A DNA stretch of 52,773 bases from Anaerolineae bacterium (GTDB taxonomy: Bacteria; Chloroflexota; Anaerolineae; Fen-1058). The stretch lies in the NCBI GenBank assembly GCA_003154115.1, contig PMCF01000171.1, positions 10,903 to 63,675 on the forward strand, in the 5' to 3' direction. Numbering within the stretch: the stretch's first letter is position 1; each line of letters starts with the position of its first letter. Position numbers and translations under genes: made by a program. Positions 6,295 through 45,317 of the stretch are shown piece by piece. A model generated the notes under the pieces. The model did no database searches, was not told the DNA's origin, and saw nothing but the letters and a program-made list of their open reading frames with translations.

Positions 6295-7293
6295 TTAGCT
6301 GCGCTGGGCGACAGCGATGTGGCTGGGCGCGATGCGAGCCGTCAAGACGCGCAGCGGCTTCATCCGATTGACCTTCTCGGCCACAGCGCCTGCAGCACCG
6401 GTCGCGCCGTATGCTGCGGCTTCCGGCAACGTAATGCAATAGCGAGTTCCAAACGTCGCGCGCAGCGCACGTGACAGATCGCCATAAGATAATAGATACG
6501 TATGCGTTGCGGCGTAATCCACGCCGATGCGCCAGCGCACATAGGTCTCCATCCAACGACGCGGCAGCATCCCCACCCAACGCAAGCCGACATGCGGCTC
6601 TTTGAAAAAAAGATCAAAACGATTGCGTGAATCTCCCGTGAAAACACCCTGCGGCTTGAGCGTCCGCCGTACTTCGCCCAACATCTGCGCGGGCGTAAAT
6701 ACATGCTCCAGCACGTTGATGGCCATCGCAAAATCAAACATCTCCGCGGCAAAGGGCAGCTGATGCGCCGAGGCATGCACCAATTGAACGTTAGTCAAGC
6801 CCGCCTGTTCCACGACTTTGCGCGCAATCAACAGTGAAGACAGACTGATATCCAAGCCCACCACGCGTTCATAGTCTTGCGCCAACGCCAGCAAACCGCC
6901 GCCGATGCCACACCCAATATCCAATGCGACGCAACGCTCTGCCGTTGACCAGCCTTGTTGCCGCACACGCTCTTGAAACATGCGATAAAACGCCGGGCCG
7001 CGCTCGCGCAACGTGCGATGATACTGATTGTAAACGGTTCGACGATCTTCATTCGTCGCGCCGATCGCCAATCGTGCCGCCGACATTTCCTCAATGGTCG
7101 CCGTCGGATACATCGCAACCAGACGCGCGATCAGCTCACGCTCCTGCGGCTCGGGTTCGATCTCGCTTCCCCCCAGACTGGGAATGCCTAGCGTGACGGC
7201 AAAGGCCCGTCCGCACACCGGGCACGCGTCTGGTTCATTCAGGACTGGCATTGCGGCCCGACAAGCGGGACAGGCATACAGAATCACACTCAT
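6295..7293 (-). CDS. SAM-dependent methyltransferase with N-terminal zinc ribbon
   Basis: A 332-residue protein. The first 30 residues carry two CxxC pairs (CPAC and CPVC), a small zinc ribbon like Trm112/UPF0434-type heads fused to methyltransferases. The catalytic domain follows, with VALDIGCGIGGGLLAL near residue 120, VVGLDISLSSL (motif II Asp), FAMAINVLEHVF and TLKPQGVFTGDSRN. The C-terminal 100 residues are basic and aromatic and probably cap the active site. It lies 27 nt upstream of the phosphatase-superfamily gene and 15 nt downstream of a GT4 gene in the same operon. A role in methylating a glycan or lipid-linked intermediate is inferred from context. Confidence 0.87.
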   Translation of the reverse strand: MSVILYACPACRAAMPVLNEPDACPVCGRAFAVTLGIPSLGGSEIEPEPQERELIARLVAMYPTATIEEMSAARLAIGATNEDRRTVYNQYHRTLRERGPAFYRMFQERVRQQGWSTAERCVALDIGCGIGGGLLALAQDYERVVGLDISLSSLLIARKVVEQAGLTNVQLVHASAHQLPFAAEMFDFAMAINVLEHVFTPAQMLGEVRRTLKPQGVFTGDSRNRFDLFFKEPHVGLRWVGMLPRRWMETYVRWRIGVDYAATHTYLLSYGDLSRALRATFGTRYCITLPEAAAYGATGAAGAVAEKVNRMKPLRVLTARIAPSHIAVAQRS

Positions 7294-39199: not shown

Positions 39200-39272
39200 G
39201 AGTGAGGGACAGAGAGAAGGAGAGAAGGAGAGACTGATAATCTCTCCTTCTCTCCCCTTCAATCTCTCTATC
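39200..39272. terminator. Hairpin between convergent folD and the deacetylase gene
   Basis: A purine-rich arm is followed by its near-complement. The inner stem GAGAAGGAGAGA (39222-39233) pairs perfectly with TCTCTCCTTCTC (39241-39252) across a 7-nt loop. The outer parts continue imperfectly. No T-run follows. Placed between convergent genes, it probably terminates or stabilises transcripts. It resembles the repeat family at 40885, 41911 and 45244, though its period is nearer 8 than 7. Confidence 0.6.
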
Positions 39273-40421: not shown

Positions 40422-41900
40422 ATGGATTTCCTGACTGATCTTCACCGCTTCATCACCCGCTACGATCTACTCCCGCGCGGCTCGCCCGTCATCGTCGGCG
40501 TGTCGGGCGGGGCCGATTCGCTGTGCTTGCTGCACACCCTGCACACGCTCGCGCCTGACAATGAGTGGCGCCTGCATGTCGCGCACCTCAACCATCAACT
40601 GCGTGGAGCAGCCGCGCAGGCCGATGCGGACTTCGTGCGCGACATCGCCCGGCAATGGAACCTGCCCAGCACGATCGAATCACGCGACGTAGCGGCTTTT
40701 GCGCGTCGCCACAAACTCTCGCTTGAGGAAGCGGCCCGTCAAGTGCGCTATGGATTCTTGTTGGAGGTAGCCCTCACCCAGCACAGCGACGTCATTGCCG
40801 TCGCGCACAACGCCGACGATCAAACTGAATCTGTCCTCATGCACTTGCTGCGTGGCAGCGGTTTGGCCGGTTTGCGCGGCATGCAATCTAAAATGTTGAT
40901 TGCTGATTTGCGATTGCTGATTGCCCGTTCATCTAATCAGCCATCAGCCATCAGCCATCAACAATCCAAAATCTATCTTGTGCGGCCTCTGCTCGAAACG
41001 CCGCGCTCCGCTATCGAAGAGTATTGCCAGGAGAATAATCTTCACCCGCGCCTCGATGCCACCAATGCCGACACCACCTACTTTCGCAATCGCCTGCGTC
41101 ACGAATTGCTGCCGACACTGGAGACCTACAACCCCAACATTCGATCGATCCTGCGCCGCACGGCGGACGTCATCGCCGCCGAGGTTGAAATCCTGCAAGC
41201 CCACACGAACTACGCCTGGGACATGACCGTCGTGGTAGAATCGACCACGGCGGTCACGTTCAATCTGTTATTGTGGCGCGAACAACCGATCGGGGTGCAG
41301 CGCGCTCTGCTGCGTAAAGCGATTCATCAACTCCGGCCGCCGCTGCGCGATATCGACTTCGGGCACATTGAAGATGCGCTCGAGATTTTGCAGCGCGCCC
41401 ACACCGGCGATCAAGTGACGCTGCCGCAGCATCTCTTGATCGAAGTGAGCTACGACACTTTTACAATTTCACCGCGCGAGGAACTGGCCCAACCCGATTG
41501 GCCGCAGCTGCCCGAAGGATTCACGTCGCTGGCCATCGACGTACCCGGTGTTACGCCTTTGCCGGAATCGATCTGGCGGCTGGAAGCAGAAATCCTCGCA
41601 GGAGAAGTTGAACCGACGGGAGGGTTGACCGCGCTCCTCGACGCCGCTGCACTGCCCGGCCCGCTGATCATGCGCCCGCGCACCAGCCGCGATCGCTTTC
41701 ATCCGCAAGGGATGCCGTCGCCCGTGGGGCTGAAAGACTGGATGATCAACGCCAAAATTCCGCGCGCCATTCGCGATCGCTTGCCGCTCATCACCTCCAA
41801 CGATCAGATCGTGTGGGTGCCGGGCTTCCGTGTGGGGCAGCCGGTCTTGGTGACAGAGAATACACGGCAAATAATCAAGCTGGAATTCAAGAAAGGTTGA
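40422..41900 (+). CDS. tilS: tRNA(Ile)-lysidine synthetase with an in-frame repeat insertion
   Basis: A 492-residue TilS. It ligates lysine to C34 of tRNA-Ile(CAU) with ATP, changing codon reading from AUG to AUA. The PP-loop VGVSGGADSLCLL is at residues 25-37, then HLNHQLRG and VAHNADDQTESVLMHLL. C-terminal substrate domains include DRFHPQGMPSPVGLKDW and VWVPGFRVG. The open frame runs back to 40140 inside the opposite-strand gene, but ATG 40422 fits the family start and the promoter. Residues about 155-184 are an extra segment rich in Ser, Gln, Ile and Leu, encoded by a heptad-phased inverted repeat. It sits between RGM and LVRPLLE, where relatives have a short loop. Confidence 0.93.
   Translation: MDFLTDLHRFITRYDLLPRGSPVIVGVSGGADSLCLLHTLHTLAPDNEWRLHVAHLNHQLRGAAAQADADFVRDIARQWNLPSTIESRDVAAFARRHKLSLEEAARQVRYGFLLEVALTQHSDVIAVAHNADDQTESVLMHLLRGSGLAGLRGMQSKMLIADLRLLIARSSNQPSAISHQQSKIYLVRPLLETPRSAIEEYCQENNLHPRLDATNADTTYFRNRLRHELLPTLETYNPNIRSILRRTADVIAAEVEILQAHTNYAWDMTVVVESTTAVTFNLLLWREQPIGVQRALLRKAIHQLRPPLRDIDFGHIEDALEILQRAHTGDQVTLPQHLLIEVSYDTFTISPREELAQPDWPQLPEGFTSLAIDVPGVTPLPESIWRLEAEILAGEVEPTGGLTALLDAAALPGPLIMRPRTSRDRFHPQGMPSPVGLKDWMINAKIPRAIRDRLPLITSNDQIVWVPGFRVGQPVLVTENTRQIIKLEFKKG
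40885..40975. repeat. Heptad-phased inverted repeat inserted inside tilS
   Basis: The left arm (40892-40923) is built from 7-nt units like GATTGCT/GATTTGC/GATTGCT. The right arm (40935-40962) is CAGCCAT repeated three times, then CAACAAT. The arms are imperfect complements around an 11-nt loop. The whole element is in frame with tilS and adds about 28-30 residues. Confidence 0.75.
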
Positions 41901-41910
41901 CCAGATGCAA

Positions 41911-41975
41911 CGTGGTGCGTAGTGCGTGGTGCGTGAAGCATGATCACGAAACACGCACCACGAAACACGCATCAC
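41911..41975. repeat. Heptad-phased inverted repeat between tilS and the EamA gene
   Basis: The left arm is built from units like GGTGCGT/AGTGCGT/GGTGCGT and the right arm from CACGCAC/CACGAAA/CACGCAT. The inner stem CGTGGTGCGTG (41925-41935) pairs perfectly with 41952-41962 across a 16-nt loop. It fills almost the whole 80-nt gap between tilS and the next ATG at 41981. Confidence 0.75.
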
Positions 41976-41980
41976 ACTCT

Positions 41981-42949
41981 ATGGACTTTCCACTCGACGC
42001 TCAAGCTCAACTGCACGAACGCGCACGGCTCAATCGCGGCTACACCCTCGGCCTGATCGGCATTGCCTTCTGGTCGACGACGGCCATCTTCATCAGCTAT
42101 CTGCTGAAGAACTACCCGCTGCAGCCGTTAACGTTAGCCTTCTGGCGCGATCTCTTTGTCGTCGGCGCTCTCACGATCGGGTTGGCCGTCTTCCGCCGCA
42201 GCGCGCTGCGCGTCGCTCCGAATCAACGCCGCTTTTTGATCGCCTACGGTTTCTCCCTGACGCTGATGAACATCTCGTGGACGCTGTCGGTAGCGTTGAA
42301 CGGCGCGGCGGTGTCCACCGTCATGGTCTACGCGTCACCCGGCATCACGGCCCTCGCCGCGCACTTCTTTTTCAAAGAGCGGATCAGTCCCATTCGCGTG
42401 GGCGCGTTTATCAGCGCGTTGCTCGGCGCGTTCTTCGTCGCCAAAGCCAACGATCCCGCGCAATGGAATATGAATGCGGGCGGCATCATCATCGGCGTGT
42501 TGTCGGCCTTTGGCTTTGCGTTCTACAGCTTGATGGGCAAAGCGGCAGCGCAACGCCGCATCAATTCGTGGACGGCGACGCTGAGCGCGTTTAGTGTCGC
42601 GGCGATCTTTCTGCTCCCCACCACGCTGATCACGTTAGCCATCGGCCAATCCACCGCTCCGATCGGCGCTGCCGCGTCCTACAGTTTGCTCTCGCTGGGT
42701 AAACAGTGGGATGGCTGGCTCATCTTGTTCATTCTCGCCGTCGTCCCCACGCTCGGCGGATTCGGCCTGTACACGGCCAGCCTGGGCTATCTGTCCGCCG
42801 GTACCGCCAACTTGCTCGCCACGTTGGAACCCGTGCTGACCACGATTCTGGCTTATCTATTGCTGCATGAATCACTGTCACCGACGCAGCTCATCGGCGG
42901 CGCGTTGATCGTCCTCAGCGTCATCTCCTTGCGATTGGAAGAAAGGTAA
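41981..42949 (+). CDS. EamA/DMT family membrane transporter
   Basis: A 322-residue protein with ten membrane segments in two repeated EamA halves. The first half begins GYTLGLIGIAFWSTTAIFIS and the second half NMNAGGIIIGVLSAFGFAFY. Each ends with a conserved YxSLxxGTANLLATLEPVLT-like or VYASPGITALAAHFFF stretch. Members export metabolites such as amino acids or purines from the cytoplasm. The open frame extends back to 41813 within tilS; ATG 41981 lies just after the hairpin and before the first helix. It is followed after 3 nt by the ModE-like regulator gene, so the two are coexpressed. Substrate unknown. Confidence 0.88.
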   Translation: MDFPLDAQAQLHERARLNRGYTLGLIGIAFWSTTAIFISYLLKNYPLQPLTLAFWRDLFVVGALTIGLAVFRRSALRVAPNQRRFLIAYGFSLTLMNISWTLSVALNGAAVSTVMVYASPGITALAAHFFFKERISPIRVGAFISALLGAFFVAKANDPAQWNMNAGGIIIGVLSAFGFAFYSLMGKAAAQRRINSWTATLSAFSVAAIFLLPTTLITLAIGQSTAPIGAAASYSLLSLGKQWDGWLILFILAVVPTLGGFGLYTASLGYLSAGTANLLATLEPVLTTILAYLLLHESLSPTQLIGGALIVLSVISLRLEER

Positions 42950-42952
42950 AAC

Positions 42953-43288
42953 ATGGAACCGCGTTTCAACATCTGGATCGAACACAACGGCGTGGTAGTG
43001 CTCAGCGAGTGGCGGGTGAAGCTCTTGGACATGATCGATCAGACCGGCTCCATCAGCCGCGCCGCCGAAAAGATGAATGTCACCTATCATCGCGCCTGGG
43101 AAAAGTTGCATGAGATGGAGGAAGGTCTGGGCTACAAGCTGGTCAACGCGCAAGTCGGCGGCGTGCATGGCGGTGGAGCCGAACTCACGCCGCAAGGCCG
43201 CGATCTCATGAAGAAGTTTCGGGCCTTTGATCAAGGTCTCGGCGACGAGATCGAGCAGCGCTTTGCTAGCGCATTCAGCGCAGAGTGA
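42953..43288 (+). CDS. ModE N-terminal-like HTH transcriptional regulator
   Basis: A 111-residue protein made only of the winged-helix domain found at the N-terminus of ModE. It has VVVLSEWRVKLLDMIDQTGS, then the recognition region SISRAAEKMNVTYHRAWEKL near residues 33-53, then LTPQGRDLMKKFRAF. The molybdate-binding domains of full ModE are absent. The start is 3 nt after the EamA stop. It probably regulates molybdate or tungstate genes, supported by the tup operon 1 kb downstream. Its last 21 codons are duplicated at 44033-44097. The final residues (ASAFSAE) differ from the copy (ANAFN), so the present C-terminus may be a product of the insertion. Confidence 0.85.
   Translation: MEPRFNIWIEHNGVVVLSEWRVKLLDMIDQTGSISRAAEKMNVTYHRAWEKLHEMEEGLGYKLVNAQVGGVHGGGAELTPQGRDLMKKFRAFDQGLGDEIEQRFASAFSAE
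43213..43277 (+). repeat. Direct repeat copy 1 (3' end of the ModE-like gene)
   Basis: A 65-bp segment matching 44033-44097 with five mismatches (43218, 43228, 43255, 43269 and 43273). Offset between copies is 820 bp. Three of the five differences are at third codon positions. Confidence 0.92.
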
Positions 43289-43348
43289 TGTTAGCCGCAG
43301 TAACGGGTTTGTCTTCGGGTATTGTTGAGCCATATGAGGAGGCTAAAT

Positions 43349-43801
43349 TTGAAGATACCATTTTCTCGCTTGGCCCTGGCAGGTGTGATCGTTTGCGCTC
43401 TTTTTATCTGTGGCTGGTTGGCGCTGGAGTTTTTCCAGCCTCTGTCCGCTGTACCCGAACCATACTCTGGTGCAGTTGTCACAACTAACGTGCATGGAGT
43501 CGGTAATTGGGGAAGTATGCGTGAACAAACATATCTGATTAACCGTTCACTAGCAGAAATGGAACAATATTATGAAGAGCAAATGCCACGGTATTGTGGC
43601 ATATCTGTAAAGTTTGCTCCTGCACCAGTACCTAACACATGGGGATGTCTTGAATCTGGAAACTCATGTTATATTGCCTCATGCAAGATACCTACATTAT
43701 GGAATTCCGATCAATTTCATGGGCAATGGTTTGATGTCGAATTATATGTGATTGACGAAAACACCACAAAAGTGATTCAGGTTACTTCTTGGACAGAGTG
43801 A
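43349..43801 (+). CDS. Small membrane-anchored protein of unknown function
   Basis: About 150 residues. A signal anchor is at residues 4-27 (SRLALAGVIVCALFICGWLAL), and the rest is probably outside the membrane. The outer part has five cysteines (YCGISV, GCLES, SCYIASCK), so disulfides are likely. The frame opens at TTG 43322 and has ATG 43334. The perfect ribosome site GAGGAGG (43336-43342) lies 6 nt before TTG 43349, which makes that TTG the best start. The segment is more AT-rich than its neighbours and sits inside the 820-bp insert between the 65-bp repeats, suggesting transfer. I recognise no family. Confidence 0.62.
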   Translation: MKIPFSRLALAGVIVCALFICGWLALEFFQPLSAVPEPYSGAVVTTNVHGVGNWGSMREQTYLINRSLAEMEQYYEEQMPRYCGISVKFAPAPVPNTWGCLESGNSCYIASCKIPTLWNSDQFHGQWFDVELYVIDENTTKVIQVTSWTE

Positions 43802-43835
43802 GAGGGCGAAAGCAAACACACGCCCGACGAGTGGC

Positions 43836-44034
43836 ATGAAAACAATACGAGTTCTCGAAAGACGAACGCGGCAAGTTTTATCGTCCGAATGTTTGATGGA
43901 TTTTGCCAATCTATCAAGATGAAGACATCGCGGCGTCTGTCGAGAAATACGCCAGACACAAACAGACGGATACCCGAACGGTAGTGAATCAAATTCTGCG
44001 GCGCAACAAAGAGATGCTGCAAGCATTGCGTTGA
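43836..44034 (+). pseudogene. Degraded CopG/RHH-like antitoxin gene
   Basis: With one A removed from the AAAA after the ATG, the frame reads YEFSKDERGKFYRPNV, then a stop (TGA), then LPIYQDEDIAASVEKYARHK and TVVNQILRRNKEMLQALR, then stop. This matches a common small antitoxin-like family that starts MKxxYDFSxxxRGKFYRPN and ends in a ribbon-helix-helix-like helix pair. A frameshift plus an internal stop make it nonfunctional. No toxin gene is visible beside it. It belongs to the insert between the 65-bp repeats. Confidence 0.68.
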
Positions 44035-44097
44035 AGTGTCGGGCCTTCGATCAAGGTCTCGGCGACGAGATCGAACAGCGCTTTGCTAACGCGTTCA
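44033..44097 (+). repeat. Direct repeat copy 2 (second 3' end of the ModE-like gene)
   Basis: A 60-of-65 match to 43213-43277. In frame it encodes RAFDQGLGDEIEQRFANAFN and then a TGA stop, a complete alternative end for the ModE-like protein. It begins on the last bases of the dead antitoxin gene. Confidence 0.92.
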
Positions 44098-44127
44098 ACT
44101 GATTGGCAGGCTTCGCCATGTTCCAGA

Positions 44128-44165
44128 TCTCCCGCCGACGCGCTATCGACGGGAGACTTTATTTT
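44128..44165 (+). terminator. Rho-independent terminator upstream of tupA
   Basis: Stem TCTCCCGCCG (44128-44137) with CGACGGGAGA (44147-44156), loop of 9 nt, one G-T-type mismatch, followed by CTTTATTTTTG. It ends transcripts of the ModE-like region and insulates tupA. Confidence 0.8.
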
Positions 44166-44168
44166 TGA

Positions 44169-44198
44169 TTGACAGCGGTATGTTTGTTTGGTATAACG
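44169..44198 (+). promoter_or_regulatory. tupA promoter with a ModE-box-like operator
   Basis: The -35 TTGACA (44169-44174) is perfect and the -10 TATAAC (44192-44197) has one mismatch, with 17 nt between. A partial inverted repeat CGGTAT (44176-44181) and ATAACG (44193-44198) spans the spacer and -10 and resembles the CGnTAT...ATAnCG half-sites of ModE boxes. The ModE-like regulator could bind here, which is inference. Confidence 0.65.
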
Positions 44199-44252
44199 AA
44201 TGTGAACCCCGATCGATTCAATATAGCAGTCAAAATTTCAGGAGGCCCTATC

Positions 44253-45242
44253 ATGCAAAACCGTTCGCTGTCCGTGTTCATGTTGTTGCTGTTGATCGCG
44301 TCATTCGTATTGTCGGCCTGTGCGCCCGCTGCTACTCCGTCGCCAACTCAACCGCCGGCGCAGCCCACTCAACTGACAGCCGCTCAACCCACCGCGCCCG
44401 CCGCGGCCACGCTGCCCAGTTTTCCCACAGCAGCGCCTGGTGATCCGGTTCACTTGCGTTTGGCCACCACCACCAGCACCGCCGACTCCGGCCTGCTTGA
44501 TAACATCCTGCCAGATTTTGAAAAAGTGTGTAACTGCAAGGTCGATGTCGTTGCCGTCGGCACCGGGCAAGCGATCGCGATCGGCCAAAAGGGCGACGCC
44601 GATGTTCTGCTGGTGCACGCTCGCAAGTCGGAAGACCAGTTCGTTGCAGATAAGGACGCCAGAGAACGTTTCGATGTGATGTACAACGATTTCATCATCC
44701 TGGGACCGAAGGCCGATCCGGCGAAAGCGGCCAGCGCGGCTTCAGCCAAGGATGCGTTCAAAGCGATTATGGATTCGCAATCGACGTTCGCCAGCCGCGG
44801 TGATAAGTCGGGCACGAATACGAAAGAGCTAAGCATCTGGTCATCGCTGGGCATCACGCCTACCAAAGACATGGCGTGGTATAAGTCGTTGGGGCAGGGC
44901 ATGGGCGAAACGCTCATCTTCGCCAACGAGCAAAATGCCTACACGCTGTCCGATCGCGGCACGTATCTATCGATGAAGGACAAGCTGCCCAACCTGATCA
45001 TCGTTCTAGGCGGCAACACACTGGCGGAGAATAAAGACAAATCACTATTGAACCCCTACGGAGTGCTGGCCGTTAATCCTGATAAGCATCCCGGTGTAAA
45101 ATTCGATCTGGCGATGCAGTTCGTCAAGTGGATCACGTCGGTGGATGAGCAGCAAAAGATCAACGACTACGGCAAAGACAAATTCGGCCAATCGCTGTTC
45201 TATCCCTCCTCGGTGGAATGGAAAGCGGCCCATCCGAATTAG
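44253..45242 (+). CDS. tupA: Tungstate ABC transporter substrate-binding lipoprotein
   Basis: A 329-residue lipoprotein. The signal peptide ends in the lipobox LSAC with the lipid Cys at residue 23. A Pro/Ala/Thr-rich tether covers residues 24-60. The binding domain has LRLATTTSTADSGLL near residue 68, VAVGTGQAIAIGQKGDADVL near residue 100 and ASRGDKSGTNTKELSIW near residue 185, the TupA pattern (TTTS and SRGDxSGT) for binding tungstate oxyanion. It captures tungstate outside the cell for TupB/TupC. The frame opens at 44169, but ATG 44253 has AGGAGG (44240-44245) 7 nt before it and starts at the signal peptide. Molybdate binding cannot be excluded. Confidence 0.92.
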   Translation: MQNRSLSVFMLLLLIASFVLSACAPAATPSPTQPPAQPTQLTAAQPTAPAAATLPSFPTAAPGDPVHLRLATTTSTADSGLLDNILPDFEKVCNCKVDVVAVGTGQAIAIGQKGDADVLLVHARKSEDQFVADKDARERFDVMYNDFIILGPKADPAKAASAASAKDAFKAIMDSQSTFASRGDKSGTNTKELSIWSSLGITPTKDMAWYKSLGQGMGETLIFANEQNAYTLSDRGTYLSMKDKLPNLIIVLGGNTLAENKDKSLLNPYGVLAVNPDKHPGVKFDLAMQFVKWITSVDEQQKINDYGKDKFGQSLFYPSSVEWKAAHPN

Positions 45243-45243
45243 A

Positions 45244-45317
45244 GAATTGGAAGTTAGAAGTTGGAGGGATCACTCGCTATGGCGGTGATACCCTCCAATT
45301 TCTAATCTCCAATTTCC
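45244..45317. repeat. Heptad-phased inverted repeat between tupA and tupB
   Basis: The left arm is built from units like TTGGAAG/TTAGAAG/TTGGAGG and the right arm from TCCAATT/TCTAATC/TCCAATT. The inner stem TTGGAGGG (45261-45268) pairs with CCCTCCAA (45291-45298), and ATCAC/GTGAT extends it inward with one bulged A. It starts 2 nt after the tupA stop and may stabilise the tupA end of the transcript. Confidence 0.75.

Follow-up and report, generated by a model that had tools for sequence, protein, structure and literature searches.

Short tandem arrays are spread through the gaps between genes of a Chloroflexota genome, and each array consists of about four units that are 7 (or 8) nt long, with some 5 nt of every unit conserved as a core and one or two positions varying within narrow limits. 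Our reading, which we consider fairly probable, is that they are intergenic arrays of short tandem repeats at the DNA level, of the heptameric kind found in Xanthomonas and Nostoc, present here in a many-dialect form, and we propose that slippage or duplication, seeding and purifying selection generate them.

The window, that is, the whole stretch of 52,773 nt that was analysed, is part of contig C307 in the genome G000, a MAG of 7.7 Mb in 460 contigs with a listed completeness of 96 and contamination of 8.5. This Chloroflexota MAG is related to Thermoflexales, and the nearest named record is the Thermoflexales MAG L009 (contig C928 of genome G001), with a TilS identity of 69%. The catalogue of arrays was built from a 1.44-Mb sample of G000, part of which was selected around GTGCGTG matches, while 491 kb was, except for the window's own contig, sampled regardless of motif. 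Because the rest of the sample was partly picked around GTGCGTG, array density is given from the 491 kb only.

Elements of the window and excess over chance

The preliminary description of this DNA reported three inverted repeats of period 7 and one of a period near 8, and all four were found again at their places. The period-8 element at 39200, which spans positions 39204-39272 (no strand assigned), belongs to the GAGRGANN family and has two convergent arms, with an array at 39204-39233 and an inner stem at 39219-39255; it fills the gap where folD (plus strand) and a histone-deacetylase-like gene (minus strand) face each other with their 3' ends. The period-7 element of the GATTGCT family at 40894-40963 (plus strand) has arms of 29 nt, a loop of 12 nt and a lag-7 identity of 0.77, and it lies in frame within the variable loop that GLRGM and RPLL bound in tilS (40422-41900). 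The gap from the tilS stop to the next gene, which is of EamA type, is filled by a period-7 element of the GTGCGTG (CGTRRNN) family at 41912-41975 (no strand assigned), with convergent arms of 24 nt, a loop of 16 nt and a lag-7 identity of 0.82. The last element, of period 7 and the TTGGAAG family, occupies 45245-45314 (no strand assigned) and begins 2-3 nt past the stop (45242) of a tungstate-binding-protein-like gene; its convergent arms are 24 nt long, its loop is 22 nt and its lag-7 identity is 0.65.

Long stems were far more frequent than chance would allow, with 46 stems having arms of at least 18 nt in the 491 kb compared with 2 and 0 in two dinucleotide shuffles, and the best lag was 7 in 14 of these 46. 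Tandem runs with a score of at least 13 numbered 20 for period 7 and 5 for period 8, and sequence resampled from an order-2 Markov model had none of either; the remaining lag peaks fell at 14 (a harmonic of 7) and at multiples of 3 (coding), with little else. The scan over shuffled sequence that the preliminary description had proposed thus reveals a large excess at periods 7 and 8. In total, 231 arrays with a median of 4.3 units were found in the 1.44-Mb sample, and the density of period-7 arrays in G000 was 6.7 per 100 kb at score 11 (491 kb). The period-7 families were CGTRRNN, AGTGANN, AGTAANN, GCARGAN, CAATGNN, GATTNNN, TTGGANN and GGAATNN, and those of period 8 were GAGRGANN and ACAAGNNN; the 14-mer GTGCGTGGTGCGTG had 48 exact matches in the genome.

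Several other repeats were seen along the way. The 3' end of a modE-like gene in the window (43220-43288) is repeated about 800 nt downstream (44040-44098), and the DNA between the two copies is richer in A+T and contains a small ORF (43322-43801) that resembles a membrane protein; a single copy of this 3' end was seen in L009, and the arrangement resembles an insertion whose end was duplicated. At L091 3827-3901, an inverted array of period 10 (GATGAACGCGGATTCACGCTGATC) suggests that further period classes exist. The hairpin CACGAAG/CTTCGTGG, with a period near 8, lies at L207 6527-6592 and has many similar copies in the genome G002, where the orthologous gap holds other repeats. A non-periodic palindrome, GTCATTCCCGCGAAGGCGGGAATCCA, is present in several copies (L089 3130-3192, L074 12807-12869), and a separate inverted-repeat family with GGATGGTCACATCC-like sequence occupies several sites (L075 12951-13012 and 13537-13667, L093 5169-5275).

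Units, pairing and orientation of the arrays

The 205 period-7 arrays yielded 60 consensus unit types, compared with about 188 expected from random heptamers, and 58 of the 60 units were joined in one single-substitution network, for which random sets gave about 13 and genomic heptamers 25. Core positions were conserved at about 90% or more in the AGTGA and AGTAA families, and the two bases after AGTGA were AG, TG, CG or AA in 122 of 125 instances. Units shift step by step within some individual arrays; along one of them (L129:4275-4368), they form a gradient from CGTAAAA through CGTAATG to CGTAGTG. These results bear out a family with a common period and differing units, far above chance, as first proposed, and show it to be more widespread than first described. 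They also correct how its sequences were described. A common architecture without a common sequence holds locally, as a small-sample effect, whereas genome-wide each unit has a many-copy family; the units, once called unrelated, form one connected lexicon linked by substitutions, and every unit family is itself widely dispersed, although dispersal of one sequence had been set aside.

With an inverted partner defined as an opposite array within 80 nt, 87 of the 231 arrays were paired (about 2% by chance). Because most arrays (144/231) are unpaired, the hairpin is one of several layouts and does not define the arrays. The polarity was convergent, with the purine-rich array first and the pyrimidine-rich array second, in 82 of the 87 (82:5). 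Family orientations were assigned after the list had been read, and an independent purine test therefore matters: the purine-richer arm was the 5' arm in 62 of 73 periodic stems, compared with 33 of 68 non-periodic stems. Each arm is an array in its own right and not a register-matched copy of the other. The in-register match of the arms was 0.837, compared with 0.795 when units were permuted, and unit order seldom agrees between paired arms; given so slight a gain and such rare agreement, the idea that one arm arose as a fold-back copy of its partner was rejected for recent events. A Mantel test on arm distances was left out because differing phases confound it. The idea that solo arrays are half-decayed hairpins was also dropped, since on average they have no decayed partner, yet the threshold missed some partners.

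Orientation was then related to gene borders, with purine content as the only measure of orientation and with approximate borders from simple ORF and codon-usage calls. Where a single border adjoined the array, the purine-rich strand ran outward from the gene in a ratio of 46:0 on the stop side and 35:12 (35/47) on the start side, and in other genomes it did so for 10 of 11 stop-side and 3 of 6 start-side arrays. Array-free gaps had no comparable base bias (0.51 vs 0.58-0.60). Many arrays start inside the stop codon or right after it, and all three frames are closed by stops in the outward strand of 113 of the 231 arrays but in the inward strand of 16. The outward strands are stop-rich, and part of the stop-side rule is therefore accounted for; as the sole cause of orientation, stop codons are insufficient, since the stop-poor GCARGA and GAGRGA8 families keep convergent polarity. 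Orientation is thus the main regularity of the arrays, and an imperfect hairpin results wherever a gap has an array at each of its two borders, the two arrays then facing one another.

Relatives, orthologous gaps and TilS

The density of period-7 arrays per 100 kb was 12.9 in G003, 10.6 in G004 and 8.2 at other Anaerolineae loci, while it was 0.7 (139 kb read) in G001, a species of the same genus as G000 in which arrays are nearly absent. Of 150 genomes in the class, 27 had one AGTGA pattern and 69 had one CGT pattern, for which the reversed control was informative for AGTGA and uninformative for the mirror-symmetric TGCGT core, and the presence of the patterns varied widely inside families. 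TTGGARR arrays are plentiful in the genomes of L018 and L020, and the Nitrospirota locus L030 carries ACTCATC and CAGTGAA arrays. A blastn search did not find the elements in plasmids.

The genomes compared at orthologous sites diverge by at least 17%. Arrays between the same genes were kept relative to G003 and G004 at several sites and were not kept relative to G001; for example, two gaps of L126 have CGT arrays that persist in G003. The gap at 39200 again carries the period-8 GAGRGANN family in G004, with changed units, and it carries a non-periodic stem in G001, with about equal gap length. In G004, the gap at 41911 (L203:10544-10594) keeps the CGT family, with other variants of the unit and a loop of reduced length. 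A counterpart of the element at 45245 is absent from L009, whose gap differs. At one gap, G000, G002 and G004 have three different families. These observations support the phase-keeping process suggested in the preliminary description, in that orthologous gaps in other genera retain the array while the unit variants differ. Residual period 7 in the gaps of G001 was considered as proof of decay, and no signal was obtained. Relative to G004, G002 contains a 30-nt in-frame GCAGGAT-like expansion where the native gene reads GCAAGATGCAGG, in a comparison of two species of one genus with 83% identity.

Across the class, the length of this TilS loop (GLRGM to RPLL) is variable, and the arrays within it are all in frame: the GATTGCT hairpin of G000 (L041 11796-11865, which is 40894-40963 of the window), a period-7 TTGGAGA hairpin in L014 (near 1530-1591) and period-7 TTGGAGA-like arrays in L010 (near 6486-6590). 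Period-7 arrays were absent from this loop in G001/L009 and G004. Because the native codons that adjoin each array (DLRL, DLRLE) resemble its own unit, the sequences suggest that the TilS arrays may have been seeded by local similarity. Heptamer repeats can thus also build protein sequence.

Origin of the arrays and known systems

For arrays with the excess, lexicon, orientation, independent arms and site persistence under changed units described above, we infer the following generating mechanism. Slippage or local duplication in steps of 7 or 8 nt would hold the phase and spread point variants along an array; with variants spreading in phase, the units would drift together and the lexicon would remain connected. 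New arrays would be seeded by copies of existing ones or by unit-like native sequence and would presumably reach new sites in this way, and purifying selection would clear those that break coding or ribosome-binding sequence. Local slippage alone leaves unexplained the lexicon common to unrelated sites and the outward facing of the arrays, and a dispersal step and a cause of orientation are therefore missing from it. No slippage event was seen directly between genomes that differ by at least 17%, and, against slippage, the orthologous pair at 41911 kept the unit number of its left arm and changed by substitution.

Other origins were weighed against this mechanism. The arrays might be selected binding sites for a protein that tiles DNA at a pitch of 7 or 8 bp, as at ribbon-helix-helix operators, with selection holding the core and the pitch while the edges vary. 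The strongly conserved core of about 5 nt with two restricted edge positions, the symmetric convergent layout, and the persistence of arrays at orthologous gaps between genera though the flanking gap sequence has diverged are all consistent with such sites. However, a single sequence-specific protein could not serve the roughly 60 unit types of this one genome, and the arrays are nearly absent in a same-genus species and adjoin unrelated genes, which makes this origin unlikely. We consider it quite unlikely that the arrays of 7- or 8-nt units are placed at gene borders and kept uniform by an active system, cellular or mobile, that works with the purine strand outward and largely independently of the unit in many lineages, with its loss in some (e.g. 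G001) leading to erosion. If this were true, the array-making system would also account for the heptamer repeats of Xanthomonas, Nostoc and Beggiatoa.

It is highly doubtful that a transposase moves the arrays as non-autonomous hairpins, in the way that a Y1 (RAYT-type) transposase serves REP/REPIN elements. Neither array-rich G066 (97% complete) nor G124 was found to have a Y1 domain, arrays with a score of at least 9 were absent beside two own Y1 genes examined, and RAYT-driven spread is thus unsupported, with a weak correlation between array count and Y1 genes (rho 0.24) in its favour. The hundreds of dispersed copies, the intergenic preference, the discrete ends with unrelated flanks and the patchy distribution among relatives would suit mobile hairpins, but loops are not common to copies, 144 of the 231 arrays are solo, and at two sites the gap length is about equal in G000 and G001 with and without arrays. 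The target-site duplication that a MITE would leave was not seen at these two gaps, where junctions cannot be placed precisely owing to the divergence of G001. A role in the transcript, as terminators or as other RNA hairpins, might be expected of arrays that can fold and are often found just past stop codons, one element lying between convergent genes. However, a T-rich tail followed the stem in only 3 of 58 cases, a terminator scan of the region was no better than shuffles, and the L104 array lies upstream of a separate terminator-like stem that G003 shares; intrinsic termination was rejected on this evidence, and the sites do not reduce to ordinary terminators, as the preliminary description had allowed that they might. 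Mismatches on the transcribed strand (59 G-U vs 57 A-C) lack the G-U bias that selection on RNA would give, and matches in Rfam were all far under the gathering cut-offs, the weak miRNA matches being dismissed as generic hairpins. The stems show no constraint at the RNA level, and a role in the transcript is extremely improbable.

As repeat arrays generated at the DNA level, the preferred reading, these sequences have several known counterparts. The STRR sequences of cyanobacteria (Calothrix, Nostoc) comprise several heptamer families per genome, which are tandem, dispersed and intergenic. The arrays here share these features and the STRRs are probably of the same kind; the named STRR units, as given in a secondary source, are absent among our consensus units. 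REP/REPIN elements are likewise short dispersed intergenic palindromes, but their arms are non-periodic, whereas the arms here are periodic, without fixed sequence and without a consistent link to a Y1 transposase. Rickettsia palindromic elements, like the tilS element, are palindromic repeats tolerated in frame within a protein, and they are sequence families that are not known to have a 7-nt period.

Heptameric repeats, a little-understood kind, are reported to outnumber other long simple repeats in the genomes of many bacteria, and both papers on them cite an older proposal that a slipping polymerase prefers steps of 7 nt (PMC4692102, PMC4679880). MacGregor 2015 described TAACTGA direct repeats of Beggiatoaceae, Cyanobacteria and Bacteroidetes, whose arrays differ between near strains mostly in 7-nt steps (PMC4679880). 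Like the arrays here, they are intergenic heptamers, patchy across lineages, and some overlap the stop codon of the upstream gene; unlike them, they have one main unit, one inverted repeat in 170 sets and mostly face the downstream start codon (PMC4679880). The closest match is provided by the heptameric repeats GGGAATC of Xanthomonas and GGGGA(C/T)T of Nostoc (Rehm et al. 2015, PMC4692102), which also have a tandem 7-nt unit with a conserved core and variable positions in about four units. Convergent inverted pairs, which the preliminary description had thought undescribed for heptamer repeats, number 70 and 75 for GGGAATC arrays in two Xanthomonas genomes, and their published layout and orientation are matched here (PMC4692102). 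Because the layout is the same, we file the arrays with the known heptameric repeats. Xanthomonas and Nostoc have one G-rich quadruplex-forming unit per genome, whereas about ten unit families and a period-8 class are present here; the G3+ quadruplex pattern was found in 1 of 231 arrays, and the arrays therefore fall outside the G-quadruplex subtype and under the broader heptameric kind only. Since about ten unit families of a single genome share the layout and the outward orientation known from quadruplex-forming units of other phyla, we argue that quadruplexes do not cause this layout, and that the layout at gene borders stems from a general mutational or selective process, which the patchy presence among close relatives opens to comparative test. 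What is new here relative to the known systems is the many-unit lexicon without quadruplex potential, the period-8 class, the patchy class-wide presence and the in-frame TilS arrays of three genomes.
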